The notes below the pieces were generated by a model that had not been told where the DNA came from, searched no databases, and saw only the letters and a list, made by a program, of their open reading frames with translations. Below are positions 45,684 to 60,583 of a stretch of 64,000 bases of DNA, one piece after another. Source of the DNA: Cyclobacteriaceae bacterium (GTDB lineage Bacteria; Bacteroidota; Bacteroidia; Cytophagales; Cyclobacteriaceae); contig JAEUUG010000011.1 in the NCBI GenBank assembly GCA_016787565.1, positions 1 through 64,000 on the forward strand, given 5' to 3'. The translations under genes and the position numbers were made by a program. Positions within the stretch are counted from its first letter, which is position 1. The number at the start of each line of letters is the position of its first letter.

Positions 45684-47966
45684 TTATTTCAATTCAAACT
45701 CGCCCTGCTTCACATCGCGGGAATTGGTGCCCACAAAAACATGAAACTTGCCCGGCTCACTTACCCACTTGAGGTCACTGTTGTAAAAAGATAGTTGCTC
45801 TTTCGTGATGGTGAATGTAATCGTGCGCTTCTCACCGGCTTTCAACATCACCTTCTGAAAGCCTTTCAACTCCTTCACCGGGCGTGTAACCGATCCGATT
45901 AAATCGCGGATATAAAGCTGCACCACTTCCGCTCCATCGCGGGAACCGCTGTTGGTCACATCCACCGAAACCAAAATAGAATCGTTGGCCGCCATCTCTG
46001 TTTTACTCAGTTGAAGTTCTCCGTATGTAAACGTGGTATAACTTAAACCATAACCAAATGGATAAACCGGTTCATTGGAAACATCTAAATAGTTCGATTG
46101 AAATTTCTGAAACCATTTTCCGTTCAACGGACGACCGGTATTTTTGTGCGCGTAATAGATTGGAACTTGCCCTACGCTTTGTGGAAAGGTAGTTGTCAGT
46201 TTTCCCGAAGGATTAACATCACCAAACAACACATCGGCAATCGCATCACCGGCTTCACTTCCACCAAACCAAACATTTAATATAGATGGAACATTTTCTT
46301 CCTCCCACTTCAGCGCCAGTGGCCGGCCGGTGAATAAAACCAACACCACCGGTTTGCCCGTTTTCAGTAAGGCCTTAATCAAATCTTTTTGTGTTTCCGG
46401 AATTTCAATGTTTGTGCGACTGGCGGCTTCACCGCTCATCTCGGCAGCTTCACCGGCTGCTACCACAATAACATCTGCACTTTTTGAGATACGCAGTGCT
46501 TCGTCACGCAACTCCGCAGCAGAACGCTTATCGCGATGGAGGGACTTACCAAACAGTGTAGCATTTGCCTCAAGCACTTGATCTTCATCGAGGTTGGAAC
46601 CTTTTGCGTACAGGATTTTTGCATTTGCCCCTACTGCTTTTAGCAATCCTTCGCGCACCGAAATGGATTCAGAAAATCGTGCCGCCACACTCCACGTACC
46701 CGTCATGTTTTCCTTCGCATCGGCCAATGGGCCAACCAAGGCAATCGTTCCGGATTTTTTAATGGGAAGTATATTGCCCGAATTCTTTAACAATACAAAA
46801 CTCTGTGCCGCTGTACTTCTGGCCTCAGCCCGGTTAGATGCATTGAAAACTTCATTCTTCGCCCGATTCGAATCACAATATTTATATGGATCGTCAAAAA
46901 GACCCAACACGAATTTAGCTCTCAAAATTCTTCTGCAGGCCTCATCAATTTGCTTCTCCGTAAGTTTTCCTTCCTGCACCGATTTGCCTAGTGTTGTCAG
47001 CAATCCTTCACTCACCATATCCATATCAAGACCTGCTTCAACTGCTTTCGCAGAAACATGTTGAAGATCGCCAAAGCCATGATTGATCATTTCACTCACA
47101 CCAGTGTAATCCGAAACTACAAAGCCCTTGAAGCCCCATTCTTTTCGGAGAACATCGGTGAGCAACCATTTATTGGCTGTTGCCGGGATACCATCAATTT
47201 CATTGAAGGATGCCATGATGCTGCCAACGCCTGCATCCACTGCAGCTTTGTAGGGCGGAAGGTATTCATTGTACATGCGATGTCGACTCATGTCTACTGT
47301 ATTGTAATCACGTCCCGCTTCCGATGCACCATACAGGGCATAGTGCTTCACACATGACATGATAGTATTGTTAGCCGAAAGGTTATCGCCTTGAAAACCT
47401 TTAACCATGGCACGTGCAATCTGCGAACCGAGGTAGGGATCTTCGCCACTGCCTTCTGAGACACGACCCCACCGTGGATCACGGGATATATCCACCATCG
47501 GTGAGAATGTCCAATTGATGCCATCGGCACTGGCTTCCTGTGCGGCAATACGTGCGCTGCGCTCAATCAGCTTCATATCCCAACTGCAACTCAATCCCAA
47601 CGGGATGGGAAAGACTGATTCATATCCATGAATAACATCCATTCCAAAAATCAACGGAATTTTTAGCCGGCTCTTTTCAACGGCTATCTTTTGCATTTCT
47701 CTAATGTTGGCAACGGTCTTGATGTTAAAGAGTCCGCCAACACTGCCTTGCTCAATTTTTTTTGCGATATCCGAACTCTCCACAGCACCCGTTGTAAAAG
47801 CACCTGCGGAAGGCAAATTGAGTTGTCCGATTTTTTCCTCCAGTGTCATCAACCGCATCAGCGAGTCAATGCGCTGATCGATCGTGTTGGTTGACTGCTG
47901 TTCATTTTTCTGACATGCTGTTAGTCCCAGCAGGACAACCAGCACAATACTTGTTATTCTCTTCAT
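45684..47966 (-). CDS. GH3 beta-glucosidase, lipoprotein
   Basis: Exo-acting beta-glucosidase of 760 residues. The lipobox LLGLTAC gives a lipid anchor on Cys18. The GH3 N-terminal TIM barrel contains RDPRWGRVSEG, CVKHYALYG and the predicted nucleophile Asp286 in GFVVSDYTG; the C-terminal sandwich and fibronectin III-like domain follow (PFGYGLSYT). It is BglX-like in length. With two GH144 genes upstream, the likely substrate is sophorose and longer beta-1,2-linked glucooligosaccharides; this is inference from context. Last gene of the leftward locus. Confidence 0.93.
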   Translation of the reverse strand: MKRITSIVLVVLLGLTACQKNEQQSTNTIDQRIDSLMRLMTLEEKIGQLNLPSAGAFTTGAVESSDIAKKIEQGSVGGLFNIKTVANIREMQKIAVEKSRLKIPLIFGMDVIHGYESVFPIPLGLSCSWDMKLIERSARIAAQEASADGINWTFSPMVDISRDPRWGRVSEGSGEDPYLGSQIARAMVKGFQGDNLSANNTIMSCVKHYALYGASEAGRDYNTVDMSRHRMYNEYLPPYKAAVDAGVGSIMASFNEIDGIPATANKWLLTDVLRKEWGFKGFVVSDYTGVSEMINHGFGDLQHVSAKAVEAGLDMDMVSEGLLTTLGKSVQEGKLTEKQIDEACRRILRAKFVLGLFDDPYKYCDSNRAKNEVFNASNRAEARSTAAQSFVLLKNSGNILPIKKSGTIALVGPLADAKENMTGTWSVAARFSESISVREGLLKAVGANAKILYAKGSNLDEDQVLEANATLFGKSLHRDKRSAAELRDEALRISKSADVIVVAAGEAAEMSGEAASRTNIEIPETQKDLIKALLKTGKPVVLVLFTGRPLALKWEEENVPSILNVWFGGSEAGDAIADVLFGDVNPSGKLTTTFPQSVGQVPIYYAHKNTGRPLNGKWFQKFQSNYLDVSNEPVYPFGYGLSYTTFTYGELQLSKTEMAANDSILVSVDVTNSGSRDGAEVVQLYIRDLIGSVTRPVKELKGFQKVMLKAGEKRTITFTITKEQLSFYNSDLKWVSEPGKFHVFVGTNSRDVKQGEFELK

Positions 47967-48071: not shown

Positions 48072-49403
48072 TTATTCAAATCCTAATTTGGTCTTGGCTA
48101 CCTGTACTTCAGGAGCCGACATAAATAAATTCCACAGCAAACCGGTGCGATGGTTTTCAATCATCACTACGGCAGGTCCCTGATCAATCGCCAGGTAGCG
48201 TGGCAAATACCAATTGTTTTGCTCACTGAAGGCATCATAAAAACCATACACACCAAATACCTTATCGCCAAGATCTTCATACAGATGGCGAACTACTTTC
48301 ATCGATTCATCGGGTGTATATGGAAATGATGACAATGCAGCAGTCGGTGAGATAACACCCAGATCTTCCGTGGGACTATGTGCAGCATATCCGTTGATCG
48401 AATAACTTGCTGTTAAGCCCCAGCAATTTTCACCATACCCTTTGAAGTGCTTCGGATTCTCTAAACAATATTGCCGGTTGATGAGGGTATGATTTGTATT
48501 GTGTTCCCAATAATCGGCATAGCGGTCTTTGAGGTTGCGCGGATCCAGGCCAAGAAAAGAATAGTGCGACCAAAACAAAGGACCGCCATATTGCTGGGCA
48601 CCATTGTGTTTCAAACTCAGGTGATAGCCATATTGCTGATGCGCTGTGTCATTGCGGATGCCGCCTTTGCGGGCCCACCCTTCGTGATATACTTCTGCCG
48701 GAATACTGTGTGTAGGTGAACCTGCTGCGAGGAAATACATGATGAGGCATTCATTATATCCCTCTACTGCAAAATTCATCTTCCATTGTTTATCCGGTGA
48801 CCAGTGCCAGTATAAAACATTCTTACCGTTTCGATACCAATCAAATTCTACCGCGCGCCATAGCGCATCAATTTTGGCCACCAATGCTTTCTCTGCCTCG
48901 GTTCCGTTTTTAAAATATTCACGAACACAAATAAGTCCTTGTAATAAATAAGAAGTCTCCACCAGGTCACCGCCATCATCGTTTGGACTAAAGGGTTTAA
49001 CTTTTCCCGTTTCGCCATTCAACCAATGGGGCCATGCACCGTGAAAGCGATCTGCCTTTCCTAACCAGTCAACCAGTTTATCCAGGCGCTCAAATCCTGC
49101 TGCACGTGTAATAAACTTCCGTTCAATACCGACAAGGATTGCCATCACACCAAAGCCTGTTCCGCCAGAGGTAATAATATGCTTATCATTTTCAGGATAT
49201 ACATCATCGGCATGAAAGCGTTCGCGCGCTGCTCCCGATGTTGGCTCCGCGCCATCCCAGAAGTATTGAAAGGTTTTGTATTGAACAAGAGTAAGCAGGG
49301 AGTCGTCACTCAGTGTTACAACAGAAGCCGTTGTGTCTTTCTTTTGTGGTGCACAGGCCGCAATCAGTACCAGTGACGCCAGAACATAGAAGTACCTTTT
49401 CAT
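48072..49403 (-). CDS. GH144 glucanase, single-domain lipoprotein
   Basis: A 443-residue lipoprotein (lipobox LIAAC, Cys at residue 17) consisting only of the glycoamylase-like alpha/alpha barrel of GH144, the family of beta-1,2-glucanases known from Chitinophaga and Parabacteroides. Shared landmarks are LVQYKTFQYFWDGAEP, SGGTGFGVMA, ADRFHGAWPHWLNG, NDDGGDLVETSYLLQGL, YWHWSPDKQW and the ending IENHRTGLLWNLFMSAPEV. It is paralogous to the next gene upstream over the whole barrel. One of the two may act internally on the chain and the other release sophorose from the end; which is which cannot be read from sequence. Confidence 0.88.
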   Translation of the reverse strand: MKRYFYVLASLVLIAACAPQKKDTTASVVTLSDDSLLTLVQYKTFQYFWDGAEPTSGAARERFHADDVYPENDKHIITSGGTGFGVMAILVGIERKFITRAAGFERLDKLVDWLGKADRFHGAWPHWLNGETGKVKPFSPNDDGGDLVETSYLLQGLICVREYFKNGTEAEKALVAKIDALWRAVEFDWYRNGKNVLYWHWSPDKQWKMNFAVEGYNECLIMYFLAAGSPTHSIPAEVYHEGWARKGGIRNDTAHQQYGYHLSLKHNGAQQYGGPLFWSHYSFLGLDPRNLKDRYADYWEHNTNHTLINRQYCLENPKHFKGYGENCWGLTASYSINGYAAHSPTEDLGVISPTAALSSFPYTPDESMKVVRHLYEDLGDKVFGVYGFYDAFSEQNNWYLPRYLAIDQGPAVVMIENHRTGLLWNLFMSAPEVQVAKTKLGFE

Positions 49404-49420
49404 GGAAGAATTATTTCATG

Positions 49421-51406
49421 TTAGTTTTTAGAAAAATTCAATTTAGTCATGCCCTGTTGAACTTCCGGTGCCGACATGAATAAATTCCACAACAAACCCG
49501 TTCGGTGATTTTCAATCATGACAATGATCGGTCCCTGGTCAATAGCCAGATAGGATGTTGCAGTCCATCCTTGTGTGATATTGAAGGCATCATAAAACCC
49601 ATACTGTCCCCAAAGCCGATCGCCCATCGTATAGTAAAAATACTTCAAGGCTTTCATCGATTCATTGGGTGTGTAGGGAAAAGAAGACAGTGCAGCGGTG
49701 GGCGTAATCACACCCAAATCATTAGCGGGTGAATGCGCATTGTATCCACTTTGATTATCACTGGAGGTAAGGCCCCAGCAGGCATCACTGTAGCCGACAA
49801 AATTCTTTGGATTGGCTATGCAGTACGCTTGATTGATGCGCGATGCATTTACGTTTTGCTCCCAGTAGTTAGCATAGTCATCGGTAAAGTGAGGATCAAG
49901 TCCGAGATAGGAATAATGCACCCAAAACAAGGGAAAGAGTCCGCCAAGCTTGAGCGGAATGCCATAGTATGTATTGTTTCGAACGATGCCTCCATTTTGT
50001 GCAAAGCCGTTGGTGTATACAATTTTTGGAATGCTGTGGGTAGGCGAAGCGGCTGCAAGCAAATACGTAATCTGTTGTTCAAAGTATCCTGACAAAGCGA
50101 AGTTCATATCCCAATTGTAATTGGGCGACCAGTGCCAATACAGAACATTCTGATCTCCCCTGCGGTACCAGTCCCACTCGACACCTTCCCATAGCAGTGT
50201 GATGCGGTTGATCAGATTATTGCCAACGGTATCAGTCGGTTGCAAATATTGCCGAAAGGTTAAGAGGCCCTGTACCAGAAAAGATGTTTCAACTAAATCA
50301 CCACCGTTGTCCTTCGTGCTGAAAGGGATAACCTTTCCGGTGCTTCCATTAATCCAATGCGACCAGGCACCATGAAAGCGATCGGCTGTTTCTAAAAAGC
50401 TCACAATTTTTTTTGCACGCTCGATGCCATCCTGGCGGTTGATAAAATTTCGTTCCATGCCCACAATTAATGACATGATGCCGAAGCCTGATCCACCGCT
50501 GGTTACCAGATTTCCCGATCCATTTCGCTCGCGTGCCATGCCGCTGTTGGGCTCAGCATAGTCCCAGAAATATTTAAACGTTTGTTGCTGAACCAGGGTG
50601 AGCAGTTCATCATCCGATACGACCGGAAATTTTGGTGTTGGATCAACTGCCGTATAGAAAATTTTATTCACATCACTAAACACTTCTCCATTGGCTCCTT
50701 TAATCTGATTGGAAAGAAAAAGCTGGTGCCGACTGAGATGTTTCAGCGGCTGTGATGAGGTGAGGGTAAGTTTTTTATTCCCGTCTGAAAGCGAAAATAT
50801 CAAGGGCACTGACCCACTTGTTCCGGAAAGGCGAACAAGATCAGTAGTAATGGTTGCCGGATTCAACGCATGCGAAAAGTTAATCTCCGCAGACAGTATC
50901 TGCGGTATATCAACCACTGGACTGATGTTCAGAACATTTGCACTGTTCATCATTAATGATGTTATCTGTAATACATCCGGAACTGTGGTAAAACCGATCG
51001 TAGTTCCCGGAAATGTTTCACCCTGTGTACCCTTGAGGGTATTGGAAATTCGTAATTCGAATTGCTCGTTGGCTGCGAGTGAAGAAGCTGGCAAAGCCGA
51101 TAATGTTTTGTCAGTATCCAAAAATGAGAAAGTGAGCGGGATGATATCACCGGAAGAAACTTTCTTTAGCTGGATAGCCAGAGAAACTGAATTGACATCC
51201 AGCGGTGCAGAAAACGATGCAACAATCGGTTGGTTAACCGGAGCTGTAGCATTAGCGGTGGCATTGGTGAGGTTAAGTGTGTAGGTTCCTACGCGGGCAA
51301 TGGTGAGTTGAAGGACATCCGGTTTTACCGGATCTTTTTCATCGCAGGATTGAAAAAAAAGTAAGGAGAGAGAGAGGAAAAATAAGGTGAATTTAAATTT
51401 TGTCAT
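49421..51406 (-). CDS. GH144 glucanase with two N-terminal Ig-like domains
   Basis: A 661-residue lipoprotein (lipobox SLLFFQSC). Two Big_5-like beta-sandwich domains (about residues 30-145 and 145-255, with LPASSLAANEQFELRISN-type strands) lead to a GH144 catalytic barrel (about 260-661; FKYFWDYAEPNSGMARER, ADRFHGAWSHW, NGGDLVETSFLVQGLL). The Ig-like stalk probably lifts the enzyme off the outer membrane, as expected of a surface endo-enzyme that makes oligosaccharides for SusC/D. A 61-base part of this gene (50174-50234) is duplicated in the accessory mosaic. It is separated from the upstream lipoprotein gene by a strong terminator. Confidence 0.9.
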   Translation of the reverse strand: MTKFKFTLFFLSLSLLFFQSCDEKDPVKPDVLQLTIARVGTYTLNLTNATANATAPVNQPIVASFSAPLDVNSVSLAIQLKKVSSGDIIPLTFSFLDTDKTLSALPASSLAANEQFELRISNTLKGTQGETFPGTTIGFTTVPDVLQITSLMMNSANVLNISPVVDIPQILSAEINFSHALNPATITTDLVRLSGTSGSVPLIFSLSDGNKKLTLTSSQPLKHLSRHQLFLSNQIKGANGEVFSDVNKIFYTAVDPTPKFPVVSDDELLTLVQQQTFKYFWDYAEPNSGMARERNGSGNLVTSGGSGFGIMSLIVGMERNFINRQDGIERAKKIVSFLETADRFHGAWSHWINGSTGKVIPFSTKDNGGDLVETSFLVQGLLTFRQYLQPTDTVGNNLINRITLLWEGVEWDWYRRGDQNVLYWHWSPNYNWDMNFALSGYFEQQITYLLAAASPTHSIPKIVYTNGFAQNGGIVRNNTYYGIPLKLGGLFPLFWVHYSYLGLDPHFTDDYANYWEQNVNASRINQAYCIANPKNFVGYSDACWGLTSSDNQSGYNAHSPANDLGVITPTAALSSFPYTPNESMKALKYFYYTMGDRLWGQYGFYDAFNITQGWTATSYLAIDQGPIIVMIENHRTGLLWNLFMSAPEVQQGMTKLNFSKN

Positions 51407-51487: not shown

Positions 51488-52765
51488 TTAAGGTTTTCCT
51501 GAATTATACATGGATGTAACTTCTGCTGCAGTCAATACCTTGTGGTAAATGATAACATCATCCAATAAGCCTTTAAAATGGTTTGCACTTGCTTGTGCGT
51601 AGCCACCCCAAGGTTCGTCATCCCATAATGTTCCAGCACGTGATTGGATAAAACCAAATGCTAATTCATTTTTAACATCGGGCTCTACTCCACCGTATTT
51701 CAATCCCGTGATGAAGGTTTTGTTATCACCATCAGGCCACAGATCAAAATCCAGCTCGCGCATCTTTTCACCATTGGCATAGTAGATACCTTGCTTGGTT
51801 GTGCTGTTATAGGTATATACCATGTGAACCCATTTGTCTTTAATAATCGCTGACGGACCACCACTGGCAGTAAGGTCCTTTGTGAAGGCAAAACCCTGCC
51901 ATCCACCGTTGGTTGCATCCTTACCATCACCGTTGAAAGCGTTGTCTTCAGTAATTGTGTTGATCGTTCCGGCATTATTGAATTCGTAGCGGGTGGCTAA
52001 TTTCCAGCCACCATAACCTCCAAATATTTCAAATTGAAATCCGTAGAATGCACCCAGGCCCATAACGAAATGACCCTTGTCTACATTATCCGTGTGCTCC
52101 GTTGCCTTCACCCAGAAACTCAATGTAAAGTTCTGTGTGTTCATCAACTGATCGCCATTTGAAATTTCGATGATACTGGTCGTGCCATTAAAAGAAGCAG
52201 CCTTTCCTGCATCCGCCTTTCTACCAGCCGCGTAGGTAATGTCCACGATCTGTGCAGCAGCGGCATCATAAGATCCAATGATATCATTTGCATTATCCTC
52301 AAAAGTCCAGTGGGCAACAGCACCCGGTACTGCAAATGTTCCTTCTGTGGAGAAGTTACGTTCGATGGCAGTGGTTAATGTTTTACCTCCGGTACTCTTG
52401 AGGCCTGCACCGAATTCCAGAATGAATAACGTTCCTGTGCTGAAGTCGGTGTTTGGATTAATCGTAACTGTTTTTCCGTCTACCGTTATGGTTGAAGCAT
52501 ACGCTGCGGCATCAAACTGACGCTCCAGGGTAATAGCACTTACCGAAGCAGGATCAACTTCTGTAGAAAACTCTGCTGTAATGGTTGCTCCTGTCGGCAC
52601 TCCCGTTGCACTGGTGGCGCCATTCAAATCAATACTTCCTGCTGTTAACGACACCAACGTCAGCGCAGGCGGCTCATCATCATCACAACTTGTGATCAAT
52701 GTTGACATGGTTGCGAACAGCCCCACTGCCAACAGAAAACTAAAAACTACTTTTAGATTTTTCAT
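51488..52765 (-). CDS. Surface glycan-binding lipoprotein: Ig-like plus LamG-like domain
   Basis: A 425-residue lipoprotein (lipobox LITSC, Cys at residue 27 followed by DDDEPP, an acidic export signal). Domain one is a Big_5 Ig-like fold (about residues 38-145) closely resembling the stalk domains of the neighbouring GH144 enzyme. Domain two is a concanavalin-like LamG/Laminin_G_3 domain (about 150-420: AVAHWTFEDNANDIIGSYDA at its start). Placed right after susD, it is the likely third surface glycan-binding protein of the locus. No catalytic residues are evident. It is followed by a strong terminator. Confidence 0.82.
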   Translation of the reverse strand: MKNLKVVFSFLLAVGLFATMSTLITSCDDDEPPALTLVSLTAGSIDLNGATSATGVPTGATITAEFSTEVDPASVSAITLERQFDAAAYASTITVDGKTVTINPNTDFSTGTLFILEFGAGLKSTGGKTLTTAIERNFSTEGTFAVPGAVAHWTFEDNANDIIGSYDAAAAQIVDITYAAGRKADAGKAASFNGTTSIIEISNGDQLMNTQNFTLSFWVKATEHTDNVDKGHFVMGLGAFYGFQFEIFGGYGGWKLATRYEFNNAGTINTITEDNAFNGDGKDATNGGWQGFAFTKDLTASGGPSAIIKDKWVHMVYTYNSTTKQGIYYANGEKMRELDFDLWPDGDNKTFITGLKYGGVEPDVKNELAFGFIQSRAGTLWDDEPWGGYAQASANHFKGLLDDVIIYHKVLTAAEVTSMYNSGKP

Positions 52766-52806: not shown

Positions 52807-54300
52807 TTACCAGCCCGGATTTTGTGTCCAGGTATTTTGTGTTAAGTCCATTTCATTTTGCGGAACAGGAAGCAACTCATGCTTACCGGCAACGAAACCA
52901 AGCGGGCCCAATACCGCGGCTGCTTTACCGGTGCGCACCAGATCCCAGAACCGGTGTCCTTCCATCGCGAGTTCTACTCTGCGTTCGTGCAGAATAATTT
53001 CATGCAAGAGGTCTTTGTTATTTTCAGTGATGTCTAAAAGAATAGCATTGTTGCCATGCCGAGCTCTTGCGCGAACTTTATTCAGTTGTACACGGGCTTC
53101 AGCAGGCTTGTTGTTTTTATTTAACGCTTCCGCTGCCATCAGCAATACATCGGCATACCGGATAATTCTTCGGTTGTGATCAAACTGTGTTGGCACGTTG
53201 TTGCCCGGTGTCCACACTTTCTGATTGTAGCACTCAATCTCAATCAGGTCACCGTTTGTATCATAGGTCTCATCGAGTGTCGGGCCGTCACCCGCAATGG
53301 TGATACCATCAAGCACTTCACCCAGAAAAACAATGGTTTTATCTTCCCGCGGATCGCCCGGTTCAAAAGCATCCATCAAATCCAATGTAGGTCGGTTAAA
53401 GCCCCATCCCCTGTTGGGTGTGCCGCGAACACCCTGCACATTACCATACTGAACACCACCGGTTCCTTCAATGCCAATCGCTCCGATTTCAAAAACTGAT
53501 TCAGCACCAAACTCACCGGCTTTGCTATTCGCATCGGCAAAGTCGGGCATCAAATCATACTGCGCGGAATTGATAACTTCCATCGCGTACTTTTCTGCAT
53601 TGACAAAATCGCCCTTGAAAAGATAGACTTTCGCGAGCAGCGACTTTGCTGCACCGCGTGTAGCGCGACCCAAATCGGCTGAAGCATAGTCTGATTTTTC
53701 CGGCAAACCGCTGATGGCCTTCTCCAAATCCGCCACGATTAAATCGTAAATCTCATTGGCATTGGCGCGCGGCAAGCCAAGCGGAACAGTGCTTGTAGTA
53801 ACCTTTGGAACATCCCCCCATGCCCGTACCAGATCAAAATAAAATAGTGCGCGCAAGAAACTTGCTTCGCCTATGTACCGATCGCGTAAGGTTGCGTTCA
53901 TGCTGATAACGGGTACTTTTTCAATCACCACATTGGCTCGCCTGATCCCTTCATACAGCGTGCTCCACCACCGACTTAGATTTGCTTCTGTAGCAATGTG
54001 GGTGAACTTATCAAACGGACCGATGGTCGATGCGGCATCATCGGGATTACTTCCCTTGCGCGCATCATCCGACATAATATCCATGATGGGGAATAGCCCG
54101 AAATGAAAGCTGGATTTCAACATGATGTTATACACACCATTCGTTGCTAACAATGCATCGGATGCACTCGTTGGAAAATTCTCCTGCGTCAGTTTCCCTT
54201 GCAAGGGTTTGTCAAGAAAATCATCGCAGGAAACGGGCAGCAAAACCACCAGCACTAAAACCTGCAAAATTCGCTTCGAAATTATTGTGAACTGTCTCAT
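52807..54300 (-). CDS. SusD-family glycan-binding lipoprotein
   Basis: Surface lipoprotein that forms the lid of the SusC barrel and binds the oligosaccharide. It has the lipobox LPVSC followed by DDFLDKPLQGKLTQENFPTS, the classical SusD N-terminus, TPR-like helices, the EASFLRALFYFDLVRAWGDVP motif and a C-terminal RRVELAMEGHRFWDLVRTG motif. The 497-residue length is normal. It lies 15 bases downstream of susC and precedes the LamG lipoprotein by 41 bases. Confidence 0.96.
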   Translation of the reverse strand: MRQFTIISKRILQVLVLVVLLPVSCDDFLDKPLQGKLTQENFPTSASDALLATNGVYNIMLKSSFHFGLFPIMDIMSDDARKGSNPDDAASTIGPFDKFTHIATEANLSRWWSTLYEGIRRANVVIEKVPVISMNATLRDRYIGEASFLRALFYFDLVRAWGDVPKVTTSTVPLGLPRANANEIYDLIVADLEKAISGLPEKSDYASADLGRATRGAAKSLLAKVYLFKGDFVNAEKYAMEVINSAQYDLMPDFADANSKAGEFGAESVFEIGAIGIEGTGGVQYGNVQGVRGTPNRGWGFNRPTLDLMDAFEPGDPREDKTIVFLGEVLDGITIAGDGPTLDETYDTNGDLIEIECYNQKVWTPGNNVPTQFDHNRRIIRYADVLLMAAEALNKNNKPAEARVQLNKVRARARHGNNAILLDITENNKDLLHEIILHERRVELAMEGHRFWDLVRTGKAAAVLGPLGFVAGKHELLPVPQNEMDLTQNTWTQNPGW

Positions 54301-54315
54301 AGCTGTTGTGCCATT

Positions 54316-57285
54316 TTAAAATGTAACATTGAAACCAACACTGTACACCGATGGAATCGGATAACCTCCACTGTCAATTCCATTATCCAGTACACTACCA
54401 CTTGAAACCTCCGGTGTGTACCCCGTAAATTTTGTTACAGTAAAGAGGTTTGTGCCACGCACATAAACCTGAGCCGATTTGAAATGTATCTTTTCAATCA
54501 TCTGTTGTGGCAATCCGTACGCCAGCGATATGCTTCGCAACCTGAAAAATGATCCGTCTTGAATGAATCGGGTAGAGGGTAAGAAATTGTAACCGCCTGC
54601 ACTGGAGCGTGGTTCGGTATTGCTGGTACCTTCACCTGTCCAACGATCAAAAACATGCTGCTCGAAATTATAGAGAGCGGGTCTCACCGTTTCTTTTGCA
54701 TTGTATATTTTATTCCCCTGTTGTCCTTGAAAATCAATAGACAAACTGAATCCTTTATACGCACCCTCCAGGTTTAATCCATACAATACTTTCGGAATGG
54801 GTGAACCAATGTACGTTCGATCGTTACCATTCAATACACCATCCTTATTGGTATCGACAAACCTGACATCACCAACTTCTGCAATGGATAAATGCGGGTA
54901 AGCATCCAACTCTGCCTGGTTCTGAAAAACGCCATCGACTACATAACCGTAGAAAGCACCTAGCGGTAAGCCTACGCTTGTACGCGTTGTGCCGGCTCCA
55001 TTGGGCTGATAATCACCCTCACCACCAGTAGCTTTTACTTTTAAGGCTTCGTTGTGAATGGTGGTGGCAATAGCTCCGATACGGTATTTCAATCCGCCTA
55101 AAATTTCATCATTCCAGCCGAGGTTCAATTCAATACCCTTGTTTAACACTTCCGCAGCATTGTAGGTAATCGAAGCACCATCCCCATTTCCCAGGTATCC
55201 GGGCACCGGTAAATCAATCAAAATATCTTCTGTTCGTTTGTTATAATAATCAATTTCTGCTGTGAGCTTGTCTTCCAGAAATCCAAGTTCAACGCCAATA
55301 TCGGTTTGATAGGTACTCTCCCATTTCAGATTGGGATTGCCGGAAGGACCGTAGGTAGAACCGGTGGTATAAATTTCACCTGCACCGAAAACTCCACCTA
55401 CACCATTGAGCACGGAGGAGTAACGTCTGTCATACCGGGTTTTTTCGTTACCAATTACACCCCAGCTTCCGCGAACTTTAAAATTTGAAAGCACGGCAAC
55501 ATCGTTCAGGAAATTTTCATTGATCACATTCCATCCTAATGCTACAGAAGGGAAGTCGGCAAAACGATTGTCTTTCGAAAACTTAGAGGAGCCGTCTCTG
55601 CGATAGGTTACTGTTAAAAGATATTTTCGATCGTACGTGTAGTTCGCACGGAACAAATATGAGATCATGGAATAGTTCAAATCATCGGACACACCATTAT
55701 TAACAGTAGTAGGAACAATGTTTCCGGGATCGAGGTACCAGAAGTCTTCTCCATCACGCAGAATATTCTCGCCTGAAGCCGAGATGAATTCAGAAGCTGT
55801 CTCTTGCATGGTATACCCTACCACAGCATTCAGACTGCTCTTACCAAAATTCCGGGTATAGTTTATTGTGTTCTCCCACAGCCAGGTAGAGTTGTCACCA
55901 AAGGATTTGTTCAAGTCGCTGGTACTGTTCTGCTGTTGAGGATCAACATAGAATACAGGTGTGAAACTCTTCGACTTTCCATAACTAAAATCAACACCGA
56001 AGCTTGACTTAAACGTGAAGTATTTCAGGAAATCAACTTCTGTATAAAAGTTTCCAACGGAACGAATTCCTTTACCATAACTATTGGTGTATTCCAGATC
56101 GGCCAACACATTACCGACACCGGGAACGGGCGAGTAACTGCCATCTGGTTGATAGGGATTGACGGTTGGTTGTGCCCGGTACACCACAAAAACAGAATTG
56201 TTATTGGTATTCTGCTGACTGTATGGCGTAAAGGCAAGATTATTTCCAAACCGAACATTCTTTGAAAGATGATAGGTGTTGTTCAGTTTGATGGTAAGAC
56301 GTTCGTAGTTGGACTTCGGAATGATTCCTTTCTGATTGAAATATCCGATACCCACATAGTATTGAATCTTTGCAGACGCACCGGCTGCCGAAATCTGATA
56401 ATTTTGAATGGGTGCCGTTTGAAAAAGTAAATCCTGCCAATCGGTATTGGGAACTGCATCTACGTTGTTGTATGATCCCGGGTTAATTTCATTGGCAATG
56501 ATGGCAAACTCTCTTCCGCTCAGCAGATCAATTCTGTTAGTAAGGCTTTGAACACTATAATCGGCATTGACTGAAATGGTTGGATATTCCTGACCCATCA
56601 CCCCTTTTTTTGTAGTGACCATGACAACACCGTTGGCGCCACGCGAACCATAGATTGCAGTAGCGGAGGCATCTTTCAGAACTTCAATGGATTGGATATC
56701 GCCCGAATTCAAAAAATCGATGTTATCCAGAATAACACCATCCACTACATAAATTGGACTGGCATTATTGAAGGTGCCTACACCTCTGATCCGCACAATG
56801 GCACCTGCTCCGGGTGCACCCGATGCCGTTGTAATTTGAACACCAGGGATTTTGCCTTGAAGCGCTAAAACGGGTGAAGCTGCCGGAATTTTATTCAGAT
56901 CATTCCCTTTCATGGATGAAACGGAACCTGTTAAATCTGACTTTTTCACAGTTCCATATCCAATCACCACAATATCCTCTAAGGTCAAAACATCAACCTC
57001 GAGCGCTATATTAATGGTTGTCCGCTCGCCCACTTGTACGGTTTGCGTTTTATACCCTACAAAAGTGAAATTGAGTGTGTTTTCGGCCGCAGCCAATTCT
57101 ATGGTGTAAACACCATCAACATCTGTAGTTGTACCTCTCGCAGTACCCTGAACAACCACATTGACTCCAGGTAGTCCCTGGCCATTTTCTGCATCTGTAA
57201 CCTTGCCCTGAATGGTACGGGTTTGGGCGAAGGCATTTGTTACTCCAAGCGTAACGAAAACGATTAACAGTAGTATTCTCCTCAT
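54316..57285 (-). CDS. SusC-family TonB-linked outer-membrane transporter
   Basis: TonB-dependent importer of oligosaccharides, 989 residues. After the signal peptide comes the carboxypeptidase-like regulatory domain (TIQGKVTDAENGQGLPGVNV), then LEDIVVIGYGTVKKSDLTGS, the SusC TonB-box signature, and the plug with GVGTFNNASPIYVVDGVILD. The protein ends VYSVGFNVTF with a terminal Phe. It heads the leftward locus of beta-1,2-glucan use; the gene for the 7TM-DNA-binding fusion is 253 bases upstream. No extra STN domain is present, so no direct anti-sigma signalling partner is expected. Confidence 0.97.
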   Translation of the reverse strand: MRRILLLIVFVTLGVTNAFAQTRTIQGKVTDAENGQGLPGVNVVVQGTARGTTTDVDGVYTIELAAAENTLNFTFVGYKTQTVQVGERTTINIALEVDVLTLEDIVVIGYGTVKKSDLTGSVSSMKGNDLNKIPAASPVLALQGKIPGVQITTASGAPGAGAIVRIRGVGTFNNASPIYVVDGVILDNIDFLNSGDIQSIEVLKDASATAIYGSRGANGVVMVTTKKGVMGQEYPTISVNADYSVQSLTNRIDLLSGREFAIIANEINPGSYNNVDAVPNTDWQDLLFQTAPIQNYQISAAGASAKIQYYVGIGYFNQKGIIPKSNYERLTIKLNNTYHLSKNVRFGNNLAFTPYSQQNTNNNSVFVVYRAQPTVNPYQPDGSYSPVPGVGNVLADLEYTNSYGKGIRSVGNFYTEVDFLKYFTFKSSFGVDFSYGKSKSFTPVFYVDPQQQNSTSDLNKSFGDNSTWLWENTINYTRNFGKSSLNAVVGYTMQETASEFISASGENILRDGEDFWYLDPGNIVPTTVNNGVSDDLNYSMISYLFRANYTYDRKYLLTVTYRRDGSSKFSKDNRFADFPSVALGWNVINENFLNDVAVLSNFKVRGSWGVIGNEKTRYDRRYSSVLNGVGGVFGAGEIYTTGSTYGPSGNPNLKWESTYQTDIGVELGFLEDKLTAEIDYYNKRTEDILIDLPVPGYLGNGDGASITYNAAEVLNKGIELNLGWNDEILGGLKYRIGAIATTIHNEALKVKATGGEGDYQPNGAGTTRTSVGLPLGAFYGYVVDGVFQNQAELDAYPHLSIAEVGDVRFVDTNKDGVLNGNDRTYIGSPIPKVLYGLNLEGAYKGFSLSIDFQGQQGNKIYNAKETVRPALYNFEQHVFDRWTGEGTSNTEPRSSAGGYNFLPSTRFIQDGSFFRLRSISLAYGLPQQMIEKIHFKSAQVYVRGTNLFTVTKFTGYTPEVSSGSVLDNGIDSGGYPIPSVYSVGFNVTF

Positions 57286-57538
57286 AATCCTTCTGACGGT
57301 ACTTTTTGGGTTTTTTCTCTTACCGCAGACTTAAATTATAATTTGGTCAAGTATTACACTCACTTTTTTTTATCAATGTGCATAAAACACACCGTTTCCT
57401 ATACCTCTTTCAGTGAGGCTTTTTTACGCTTAAAAAACATCGATTTCAAACGATTTCAGGTATATTTTATGGAATTATGAGAATTCGTTTCATGGATTAA
57501 AAACATGACACTTTTGATGCCCTGAAAAGCAGTAGGGA
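57286..57538. other. Region between the 7TM regulator and susC
   Basis: A 253-base A/T-rich gap that must hold the susC promoter and any operator. I see no good TTTG-N19-TAnnTTTG pair; a TATAATTT (near 57337-57344 on the minus strand) is the nearest -7-like element. The short inverted repeat CCTC/GAGG with a T-run at about 57403-57425 would terminate a rightward transcript, but no rightward gene is present. Direct contact of the fused regulator with this region is the natural expectation. Confidence 0.35.
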
Positions 57539-59461
57539 TCAGGATATTTTCTCAGGCTTCGAGGATTCCTGATTTGATGATGATTTCGGGAATTTATGGT
57601 GCTCGTGAATTAAAATAACGTCATGCCATCGGGAGGCATGGGGCCTGTTTCCCTTACCTTCAAGCACCTGTATGCGCTCGGAAACTTTATGTTTAAAACC
57701 CCAAACCGTATTTACCCGCAAATCGAGCTGTGTAGCCAGGCTTTCCAGGGTATACTCCTTTTTGCCCGTTACGACCAGGTAGGCGATATAAAATGCCTTT
57801 TCGATTGGGAATTTAATGCTGTGAAAGATCGTAAAGGCTGTAATGGACTCATTGTACCCGCACCGTGTACAGCGCCTCGCAAATTTCTGTGCACCATCAA
57901 AATATTTCTCATTTCCGCATTTTCGGCAATGAAAAGCCTGCTCCCACTTTAGATTCTCTAAAAATCGATGGCATGAAAGCGTATCCGGGTAAAGGGTCTG
58001 GAATTGGGTATAATCCATCACTTTCTCCAGCAATCGCTCGTTGAGAACCTCCTTGATACTGTTTTTCAGCTTCCAGTTGTCGAGATCGAGAATGGAGTTA
58101 ATCTGGTTGATTTCACGAGCCTGCCGCTCAAGCTTGTGGTTGCTTTCTTCTAACTCGATATTTTTCTGGTTGATTTCGATGGTGCGCTCCTGCACCTTTT
58201 GCTCAAGCTCACGGTTCACTTTGTCTTTCAATTGCATGTTCACCTCGTTCTGATGAAGGATTCGCTTTGTGGCCCGGTCGCGCATCCGTTTCAGAATCCG
58301 GATTCTATCGCCCAGGGCGAAAGTCAAAAACAGCATTTCAATTACAAAACTGAAATGCAAACTATAGTGCGATCGCGTAGTAAGTGGTAAAACATTAAAG
58401 TATACTAATGAGCGCACAAAGAAACCCGCAAACAAAATACCGTACGCGATAACAAAGAAGCGCGCTGGCCTGTAACCCCGGTACCACACATAAATGCCTG
58501 AAACAAAAATCAGCGAAAGCGGAATGATTTCAATGTTGCGATAGGTGAGTAAGTATTGGAGAAAGAATAATTCCAAAACAAAAAAAACTGTACGGGCAAC
58601 GATCATCCACTTCAACGCCAAATCAAACCTGGGGGCATTGCCCCGCGTGCTCAAAAACCTCCGGGTGAAAATAAGTCCCCAGAGTATAACCGAGTAAATG
58701 GTAATACCCACCGCATAATCATTCCACTCCGGATGATTTGGCCAGAGGTATTGAAAACCGATACCGTCCAGACTAAGGGCATAGGCCGCCACACTGAGGA
58801 TGTAAAAAATATAGTAGATATTTTTGATTTCGCGTATGGCCAGAAAGACCAAAAAATTATACAGGGCAATGATGATGATCATGCCATAAAACGTGCCGAA
58901 CAAAAAATACTCATTGAGTGCGTAGTACACGAAATGATCGACCGAACGAAAAGCAATACGGATATCGGCAAACTCACCAGACTGTACTTTAAAATAATAG
59001 TACAGCACAGTGTCGGCTTTTACATCTAGTAAAATCTCAAAGTTTTTATGTCGGAACAATCGCTCGGTGAAGGGCTGGCTATCGCCCAACTGCAATCGTT
59101 GATAATTCCCTTTATCGTCTGGCGTATACGCTTCAATGTGATCGATCGTTTGATCATAAAATTCCAGCAGCCAGAGTTTCTGAGTCGCTGTTGTATGCCG
59201 TATTGGAAAGCGAATCCAATACGCGGTATTGATCATGAAGTCTTTATTCTGATACGAAGCGTGTTGTCTGAAACGATTTGAAAATTCGGAAGACGAAATC
59301 CGGGAAAAGGAAAGTGCGTTAGTCGTATCAATGAAATAGGTTAACTGTTTCAAAAAAAGGTCGCGCGCATCCAACGCATCATCAATTTCAATGGGCTCCT
59401 GTGCCTGAACATCGATGCATGCCATCAGCATGAACAAAAAAACCAAACGCTTCATCATCAT
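57539..59461 (-). CDS. 7TM (7TMR-DISM) receptor fused to IS1595-like zinc-ribbon/HTH domain
   Basis: A 640-residue inner-membrane protein. Signal peptide to about residue 20; periplasmic 7TMR-DISMED2 sensor (about 25-175); seven membrane helices (about 183-385, 7TMR-DISM_7TM); a cytosolic coiled coil (about 395-470); and a C-terminal DNA-binding-like part. The latter has a zinc ribbon with Cys512, Cys515, Cys531 and Cys534 (CRKC and CTRC), then SITAFTIFHSIKFPIEKAFY and an HTH region (TLESLATQLDLRVNTVWGFK), as in IS1595-family transposases but without the DDE nuclease. No kinase, cyclase or receiver is present. It lies directly upstream of susC, same strand, where the locus regulator is expected. 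The role as membrane-bound one-component regulator is inference. Confidence 0.85.
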   Translation of the reverse strand: MMMKRLVFLFMLMACIDVQAQEPIEIDDALDARDLFLKQLTYFIDTTNALSFSRISSSEFSNRFRQHASYQNKDFMINTAYWIRFPIRHTTATQKLWLLEFYDQTIDHIEAYTPDDKGNYQRLQLGDSQPFTERLFRHKNFEILLDVKADTVLYYYFKVQSGEFADIRIAFRSVDHFVYYALNEYFLFGTFYGMIIIIALYNFLVFLAIREIKNIYYIFYILSVAAYALSLDGIGFQYLWPNHPEWNDYAVGITIYSVILWGLIFTRRFLSTRGNAPRFDLALKWMIVARTVFFVLELFFLQYLLTYRNIEIIPLSLIFVSGIYVWYRGYRPARFFVIAYGILFAGFFVRSLVYFNVLPLTTRSHYSLHFSFVIEMLFLTFALGDRIRILKRMRDRATKRILHQNEVNMQLKDKVNRELEQKVQERTIEINQKNIELEESNHKLERQAREINQINSILDLDNWKLKNSIKEVLNERLLEKVMDYTQFQTLYPDTLSCHRFLENLKWEQAFHCRKCGNEKYFDGAQKFARRCTRCGYNESITAFTIFHSIKFPIEKAFYIAYLVVTGKKEYTLESLATQLDLRVNTVWGFKHKVSERIQVLEGKGNRPHASRWHDVILIHEHHKFPKSSSNQESSKPEKIS

Positions 59462-59550: not shown

Positions 59551-60528
59551 TCAATTCGATATTCCTTCGCGGTCTTTTACACCAATGGTTTCCTTTTTCC
59601 ATTGGTCTAGTTCCGCTTTCCGCTGGCGTAACTCCGCTTCAGTTGGTAAAGTATGGAGTAACCCTTTGAGTTCAGGTTGACCGGCATCTACCCAGGCCGT
59701 GAACCAAACATCGCCAATCATTTTTACAGCCATTCGCATTTGCTTTTCAACCATACCTTCAAGCAGTTTATGGTAGGCTGCGGCATATTCCCGGGCAACG
59801 ACTTTCACCGTTTGCTTGCCTTTGGTTTCAAAGGAATACTTTTTATCGCCCATGCGAGCTGACAGGTTCTTCTCCTGTTGCAGCACAGCATTCACTTCAT
59901 GGTGCGATGTTTCAATTGCTTTCCAGGCGGCCAACTGAACATTGGGCAGATGCTCGGCTTTACCAACAAAAAAATTATACTCCGTAAAAAATAGTTCCGG
60001 CAACCTCGATTCCCAAAAGGCATGAATACCCTCCTGCCCGGTAAGTTGACCATTGTAGTTCTCTGTTGTATGAAGTGGAACATGTGCATCGGCAATATAG
60101 TGACCGATTTCAGCAGAGAGCCTTCTGATGCTTTCCGGATCGCGGAGCAAAAAAGCGTGCTTCAGCTTGTAATACATTACCTGGATATGCCAGGGAAGAA
60201 TGCCGTAAGCCTTCAGCGTATCTTCACCATATTTTTCGACAGCACCTTGCCAATACCGAGGCATCGTAAAAACAGCACTGTCGCCATAATGGTCAATATC
60301 GATATAGTGTCGTGGCGCTTCGTCTACAACTGAAAATCTTCGTTTATCCGGATTGACAGAAGCTTCTGAAATGTACGTGATGTTGGTTTTGTAAAAGCCG
60401 ATCATCTCCGGAGGCAGTGTAAACACAGCGAGGCGATTGATGCGTTCGTGGGCATAGAAACCCCACTGAAAACTTGTGCAAAATATCAGTGAGAGCACCA
60501 GGATAATGGTGACAACAGTGCGCTTCAT
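59551..60528 (-). CDS. Exported S1/P1 nuclease-phospholipase C superfamily protein
   Basis: A 325-residue secreted protein starting at the ATG 60526-60528 (MKRTVVTIILVLSLIF) with the mature N-terminus near FQWGFYAHERINR. The zinc ligands of the S1/P1-nuclease and zinc-dependent phospholipase C fold appear as FYAHERI, the HYIDIDHYG stretch, and EIGHYIADAHVPLHTTENY, followed by GIHAFWESRLPELF. Substrate (nucleic acid or lipid) cannot be decided. The C-terminal KAELDQWKKE segment is a charged helix. It diverges from the M1 peptidase gene. Confidence 0.82.
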   Translation of the reverse strand: MKRTVVTIILVLSLIFCTSFQWGFYAHERINRLAVFTLPPEMIGFYKTNITYISEASVNPDKRRFSVVDEAPRHYIDIDHYGDSAVFTMPRYWQGAVEKYGEDTLKAYGILPWHIQVMYYKLKHAFLLRDPESIRRLSAEIGHYIADAHVPLHTTENYNGQLTGQEGIHAFWESRLPELFFTEYNFFVGKAEHLPNVQLAAWKAIETSHHEVNAVLQQEKNLSARMGDKKYSFETKGKQTVKVVAREYAAAYHKLLEGMVEKQMRMAVKMIGDVWFTAWVDAGQPELKGLLHTLPTEAELRQRKAELDQWKKETIGVKDREGISN

Positions 60529-60545
60529 AACCTTAAGGTACGGGA

Positions 60546-60583
60546 ATATCAAGAAGGATAAAAGCATATCAAGAAGGATAAAA
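60546..60583. repeat. Tandem 18-base repeat in a divergent promoter region
   Basis: ATATCAAGAAGGATAAAA occurs at 60546-60563 and again, unchanged, at 60566-60583, a spacing of 20 bases (about two helical turns). It lies between the divergent S1/P1 and M1 peptidase genes. Confidence 0.7.

Follow-up and report, generated by a model that had tools for sequence, protein, structure and literature searches.

A fusion of a RetS/LadS-type seven-helix receptor with the zinc-ribbon/HTH front of an IS1595 transposase as a predicted regulator of SusCD glycan loci

The sequence analyzed here (the window) comprises 64,000 nucleotides of contig JAEUUG010000011.1 from a Cyclobacteriaceae bacterium. At positions 57539..59461 of the minus strand it carries a fusion gene, here called REG, whose product joins a RetS/LadS-type seven-transmembrane (7TM) receptor to the zinc-ribbon and helix-turn-helix (HTH) front of an IS1595-type transposase. 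The fused end domains form a single clade, the gene is linked to susC in related genomes, and two repeats 64-66 bp apart before susC are associated with the regulator. REG very probably binds these repeats from the membrane, and the likely outcome of binding is activation of the SusCD-GH144-GH3 locus (GH, glycoside hydrolase family). The parts of REG, the repeats, and the locus genes given below all lie on the minus strand.

The reading frame (640 amino acids, ATG start) lies exactly at the position given by the original prediction, which proposed a receptor fused to an IS1595 front without a nuclease; all three Pfam domains of such a fusion score above their cut-offs. The 7TMR-DISMED2 domain occupies residues 38-168 (E 1.3e-28); in both sequence and fold this periplasmic domain matches 3jyb and 2xbz, structures of the periplasmic part of RetS. 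DISMED2 is described as a carbohydrate-sensing fold in PMC7695008 and PMC8846402. The seven-helix membrane domain 7TMR-DISM_7TM follows at residues 184-386 (58304..58912; E 3.4e-46, 158.2 bits against a cut-off of 29). A predicted helix spanning residues 367-477 continues the last membrane helix (58031..58300, to about residue 477), with model confidence below 50 at residues 466-480; this long cytoplasmic helix may form a dimerizing coiled coil. The IS1595-type zinc ribbon lies at residues 496-536 (57854..57976), and its profile Zn_ribbon_IS1595 (PF12760) matches above the cut-off (E 8.2e-7, 29.3 bits against 25.4); the refuting outcome named in the original prediction, a C-terminal part that fits no such profile, did not occur. 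Its four cysteines (Cys512, Cys515, Cys531, and Cys534), which stand where they had been placed, are invariant in alignments of 16 and of 38 sequences and would bind zinc. A three-helix HTH-like segment (residues 553-602, 57656..57805) is homologous to the part of the transposase that immediately precedes its DDE domain. Residues 550-597 cover positions 3-51 of the 215 in NCBIfam transpos_IS1595 (NF033547), and the score of 27.1 bits is below the cut-off of 75, as expected because only a piece of the profile is present. The DDE_Tnp_IS1595 nuclease domain (PF12762) had no Pfam match in REG, and the nuclease is therefore missing as predicted. The JGI name “sensor histidine kinase LadS” for these proteins is not supported by their domain content. 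A single further 7TMR-DISM gene was found in the same genome (contig C8 181567-182181, L002); by sequence it resembles an ordinary histidine kinase.

The fusion recurs in related bacteria. A search with residues 470-625 found 691 proteins; among the 120 matches listed, all had the 7TM domain and 104 also had the zinc-ribbon domain (counted by eye from the Pfam column). Both 7TMR domains were present in 38/38 aligned members, and the zinc-ribbon model was reached by 32 of them. Judged on the best 30 loci, at least 22 of 59 same-family or same-order genomes, including the genome of the window, carry the full fusion, with reading frames open and conserved in 21 other genomes. Across the phylum, 11 of 395 genomes had a fusion-length open reading frame (ORF); they belong to four families, of which two lie outside the order. 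Genome contigs yielded 531 stretches encoding a relative, not every one necessarily with the fusion, and the best 80 together with the window gave the 81 loci used below. In 79 of these best 80 the alignment reaches residue 593 or farther, and the remaining one (L078) is cut by a contig end. The named carriers among the best 80 are Cytophagales, for example Chryseolinea, Ohtaekwangia, Chryseosolibacter, Roseivirga, Fulvivirga, Echinicola, and Marivirga. The whole end domain, with the HTH and the four cysteines, is among the best conserved parts of REG proteins and is 60-85% identical between genera.

The end domain groups with IS1595 transposases. All 65 fusion domains in a tree built from 95 domain sequences (130 columns, weakly resolved in places) fell into a single clade nested in these transposases (94/91; 93% of 200 bootstrap trees). 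Of the intact transposases found, L115, which has both the zinc ribbon and DDE_Tnp_IS1595, comes nearest: it is 42% identical to the fusion end over 128 amino acids, and its DDE domain begins where the fusion has ended. Because the fusion clade is single and lies inside the transposases, the tree fits one capture event, in which a transposase would have lost its nuclease and given rise to the fusion. Other reduced or altered relatives were seen. A standalone zinc-ribbon/HTH protein of about 137-151 amino acids without receptor or nuclease (L155/L189, genome G239) is sister to the whole fusion clade (96/84). A 130-amino-acid ORF with the zinc-ribbon/HTH front alone (L118, genome G030) is sister to L115 and may be a broken copy. 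Genome G241 has about 10 copies (L173-L179, L152) of an IS1595-like protein of about 310 amino acids with an altered first DDE motif (EVEIMTCELG-type instead of EVDETYVGG-type); these form one clade beside intact L115 (98/91) and are possibly a second, separate domestication.

REG is linked to susC. Of the 81 loci, 78 had at least 900 bp downstream (L057, L065, and L078 had a shorter flank), and in 68 of these susC lies directly downstream on the same strand at <520 bp. It lies farther downstream in five more and was not found downstream in L034 and L060 (short contigs) or in L094, L099, and L101 (Fulvivirga). This linkage bears out the siting of REG as regulator of a SusCD/GH144 locus. The upstream flank of the regulator varies from genus to genus, unlike the susC side. 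In the window, the gene just upstream of REG (59551-60567) weakly resembles zinc-dependent phospholipase C (22.2 bits, under the cut-off of 26.8), and its cluster was found in 5/81 loci.

The DNA between REG and susC contains an operator-like element. Thirteen of the 81 loci gave no usable region, and alignment of the other 68 revealed one element present twice, as direct repeats. The motif aaTGTTTTTwww..G..AAA was present twice in 41 regions, three times in 1, once in 13, and not at all in 13, and 40 of the 43 gaps over all 68 regions measured 64-66 bp. In the window, site 1 (CATGTTTTTAATCCATGAAA) is at 57488..57507 and site 2 (GATGTTTTTTAAGCGTAAAA), 66 bp from it, is at 57422..57441. A conserved TTG at 57348..57350, 91 bp from the start of site 2, is what we take to be a -33-like element of Bacteroidota promoters; in 26 of 48 near-clade regions a TTG stands 90-91 bp after site 2. 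Near-clade regions exceeded the 99% shuffle level in 47/49 cases, a partly circular figure as the same regions trained the motif, and the near-clade motif brought 9/19 far-clade regions above that level. A far-clade motif (TGTTATTTAAGCGCAATA-like), with seeds picked from single sites seen in the near-motif scan, gave gaps of 64-66 bp in 16 of 17 cases; spacing played no part in its fitting. The intergenic stretches separating REG from susC, 27.6 kb in total, contained 106 sites of at least 14 bits, compared with 10 in the 1.48 Mb that make up the rest of these loci; two of these ten form the pair where the L034 contig ends. A loose double pattern occurred once in the bacterium's own 4.06-Mb genome, at the susC promoter described here (reversed control 0), and across 60 family genomes it was no commoner than its control (9 vs 9).

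In genomes that have the fusion, the repeat pair generally goes with the susC promoter. In L034 and L085 an insertion follows REG, and the pair stands at a distance of 4.3 and 1.6 kb from the regulator, before susC or the contig end. Three Fulvivirga genomes have REG unlinked to the locus; no pair was found within 4.5 kb behind the regulator, and the unlinked SusCD-GH144 locus carries it in 3/3 (64 bp; scores 35.1, 13.4, and 36.9 against shuffle maxima of 8.6, 9.2, and 8.5). All eight linked loci scored outdid 300 shuffles, including five outside motif training (L237, L239, L243, L247, and L188); a second susC beside one of the eight did not. The fusion domain is absent from seven genomes bearing GH144-type genes. 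Five of these could be scored (L233, L234, L244, and L245, among them the loci of REG-less G015 and G024, offered no susC promoter for scoring within the fetched stretch), and the pair was missing at 5/5 of their susC promoters (p 0.09 to 1.0), although SusC from these five genomes shares 45-78% identity with the reference set. Before susC these five genomes have an ECF (extracytoplasmic function) sigma factor and FecR in three cases, FecR alone in one, and neither in the fifth, which suggests that REG and ECF-sigma/FecR are swapped at the same kind of locus. Three further loci (L052, L060, and L061) have the pair directly behind the regulator, before an inserted ORF; the extra gene behind the pair belongs to the same cluster in L052 and L060 and precedes susC in L052.

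The predicted target operon points to a beta-glucan. Its first gene, 253 bp on from REG and the next on the same strand, encodes the TonB-dependent transporter SusC (54316..57285). SusD (52807..54300), a Big_5/Laminin_G_3 (LamG) lipoprotein (51488..52765), a GH144-type PF10091 enzyme with a Big_5 domain (49421..51406), a second PF10091 enzyme (48072..49403), and a GH3 of beta-glucosidase type (45684..47966) follow. The nearest named solved relative of the second PF10091 enzyme is the endo-beta-1,2-glucanase 5gzh (E 5.8e-210), and the GH3 matches bacterial periplasmic beta-glucosidases, among them 5xxl, which presumably acts on sophorose. Because of these two enzyme matches, the substrate is probably beta-1,2-glucan. 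Some of the 81 stretches are on short contigs; 66 of the 81 include SusD, 69 a GH144-type enzyme, and 45 GH3.

More distant members of the family lie at other glycan loci. We considered 24 outside the GH144 type, taken from match lists and hence not random; the count leaves out L267, with its regulator cut by a contig end, and the GH144-type repeats L182, L184, L185, L187, L188, L261, and L263. SusC/D or glycoside hydrolases were in the fetched stretch of 21; homologues thus do occur at transport loci, contrary to the second refuting case of the original prediction. Their neighbors include GH10/GH43 or GH115 (L125, L130, L131, L256, L258), GH9 (L128), GH64/GH5 (L127), GH16, GH30, or GH5/GH2 with SusCD or SusD (L124, L180, L183, L259, L260), GH97/GH3/sulfatase (L129), GH3 (L126), GH3 with SusCD (L132, L181, L264), and SusC/D without a tested enzyme (L186, L257, L262, L266). 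The misses were L133, L134, and L265; the neighbors of L265, judged by eye, were sulfatase-like only. By gene content, these members appear to adjoin xylan, cellulose, or beta-1,3-glucan genes.

We propose that the periplasmic DISMED2 domain would sense a piece of glycan, with a beta-1,2-gluco-oligosaccharide as the likeliest ligand, and that the signal would travel inward through the seven-helix domain and the long helix behind it. The two zinc-ribbon/HTH ends of a dimer would then engage the two repeats before the operon. REG would thus act as a membrane-embedded one-component activator, and descendants of a single fusion would now serve loci for different glycans. One-component regulators are often repressors, and REG could instead repress the locus until released by sugar. 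We consider this unlikely, as the fixed repeat spacing and the position of both sites upstream of the promoter-like TTG, 91 bp from site 2, fit an activator better. In addition, the stand-in at the same position elsewhere is ECF-sigma/FecR, a positive control system according to PMC10766802.

The repeats could also belong to another regulator encoded elsewhere, with the fusion protein sensing glycans for a different purpose. The tie between repeats and REG is an association, with binding itself predicted, and one genome (G070) has no pair at its GH144-type locus despite two fusion genes beside other loci. In that genome a Reg_prop/Y_Y_Y protein stands beside susC of the GH144-type locus (L246), and the two fusion genes adjoin beta-1,3-glucan-type genes (L259, L260). 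However, the pair tracks the fusion gene (8/8 linked and 3/3 unlinked loci with it, 0/5 in genomes without the fusion domain), and we hold a separate regulator to be improbable.

Zinc ribbons often make protein contacts, and the end of REG may have given up DNA binding for contacts with, for example, RNA polymerase or a partner transposase-like protein. Searches for a DNA-bound structure of a relative found none. Against this, the HTH is conserved together with the four cysteines, and the promoter element co-occurs with the zinc-ribbon/HTH end; a purely protein-binding end is thus very improbable. That REG is a decayed transposase fused by chance and without function, as loss of the nuclease from the C-terminus might imply, we regard as already refuted by frames kept open in 21 other genomes, by the identity of the end domain between genera, and by one clade with stable synteny.

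Activation by REG from the membrane, the reading we prefer, has partial parallels in known systems. REG shares the DISMED2 and 7TM domains with RetS/LadS receptors, but its output is a zinc-ribbon/HTH module whereas theirs is a kinase; no histidine kinase output matched REG in Pfam at E up to 1. IS1595-family transposases share the zinc-ribbon and HTH front, but REG lacks DDE_Tnp_IS1595, is fixed beside susC, is fused to a receptor, and belongs to its own clade. ChiS-family proteins of proteobacterial genomes are a precedent for a 7TMR-DISM receptor with a DNA-binding domain; that domain is a different one and, going by the description in PMC8092284, not transposase-derived. Transmembrane transcription regulators (TTRs) are a known membrane-bound one-component kind (PMC10269533) and, working from the membrane, combine membrane and DNA-binding parts in one polypeptide. 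By profile and model alone, REG likewise has membrane helices and a DNA-binding-type domain in one chain; the words “transposase,” “zinc,” and “7TM” are absent from the main text of PMC10269533. ECF and hybrid two-component system (HTCS) regulators control Bacteroidota glycan loci according to PMC10766802 and would do the same job, ECF/FecR also in the same place before susC. REG differs from both as a single protein in which Pfam found no sigma-70 regions or FecR and no HTCS parts (Reg_prop/Y_Y_Y sensor, kinase, receiver, or AraC). In TldR, a family of TnpB-derived RNA-guided transcription factors (PMC13418256), a transposon protein also became a bacterial transcription regulator, but protein and mechanism are unrelated, and REG has no RNA guide and is fused to a receptor. 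Our literature searches found no description of a transposase-derived receptor output, its glycan-locus role, or the spaced operator.

Bacteroidota glycan loci are controlled by HTCS, ECF/anti-sigma, and SusR systems. REG probably represents a so far unnamed regulator class, in which a seven-helix sugar receptor resembling G protein-coupled receptors was wired to promoters through one capture of the DNA-recognition half of a transposase. The class would use a two-site code with 64-66 bp spacing, would have spread to beta-1,2-glucan, xylan, cellulose, and beta-1,3-glucan loci, and would be interchangeable with ECF-sigma/FecR at loci of one kind. If true, this adds a further class of glycan-locus control with a ready-made operator to test, and it would be a bacterial case of a transposase front half becoming a sensor output by gene fusion. 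Material for comparison is extant in the intact transposases, the standalone short sister (L155), and the nuclease-degenerate relatives (G241), and the swapping of regulators at one kind of promoter would be traceable across genera.
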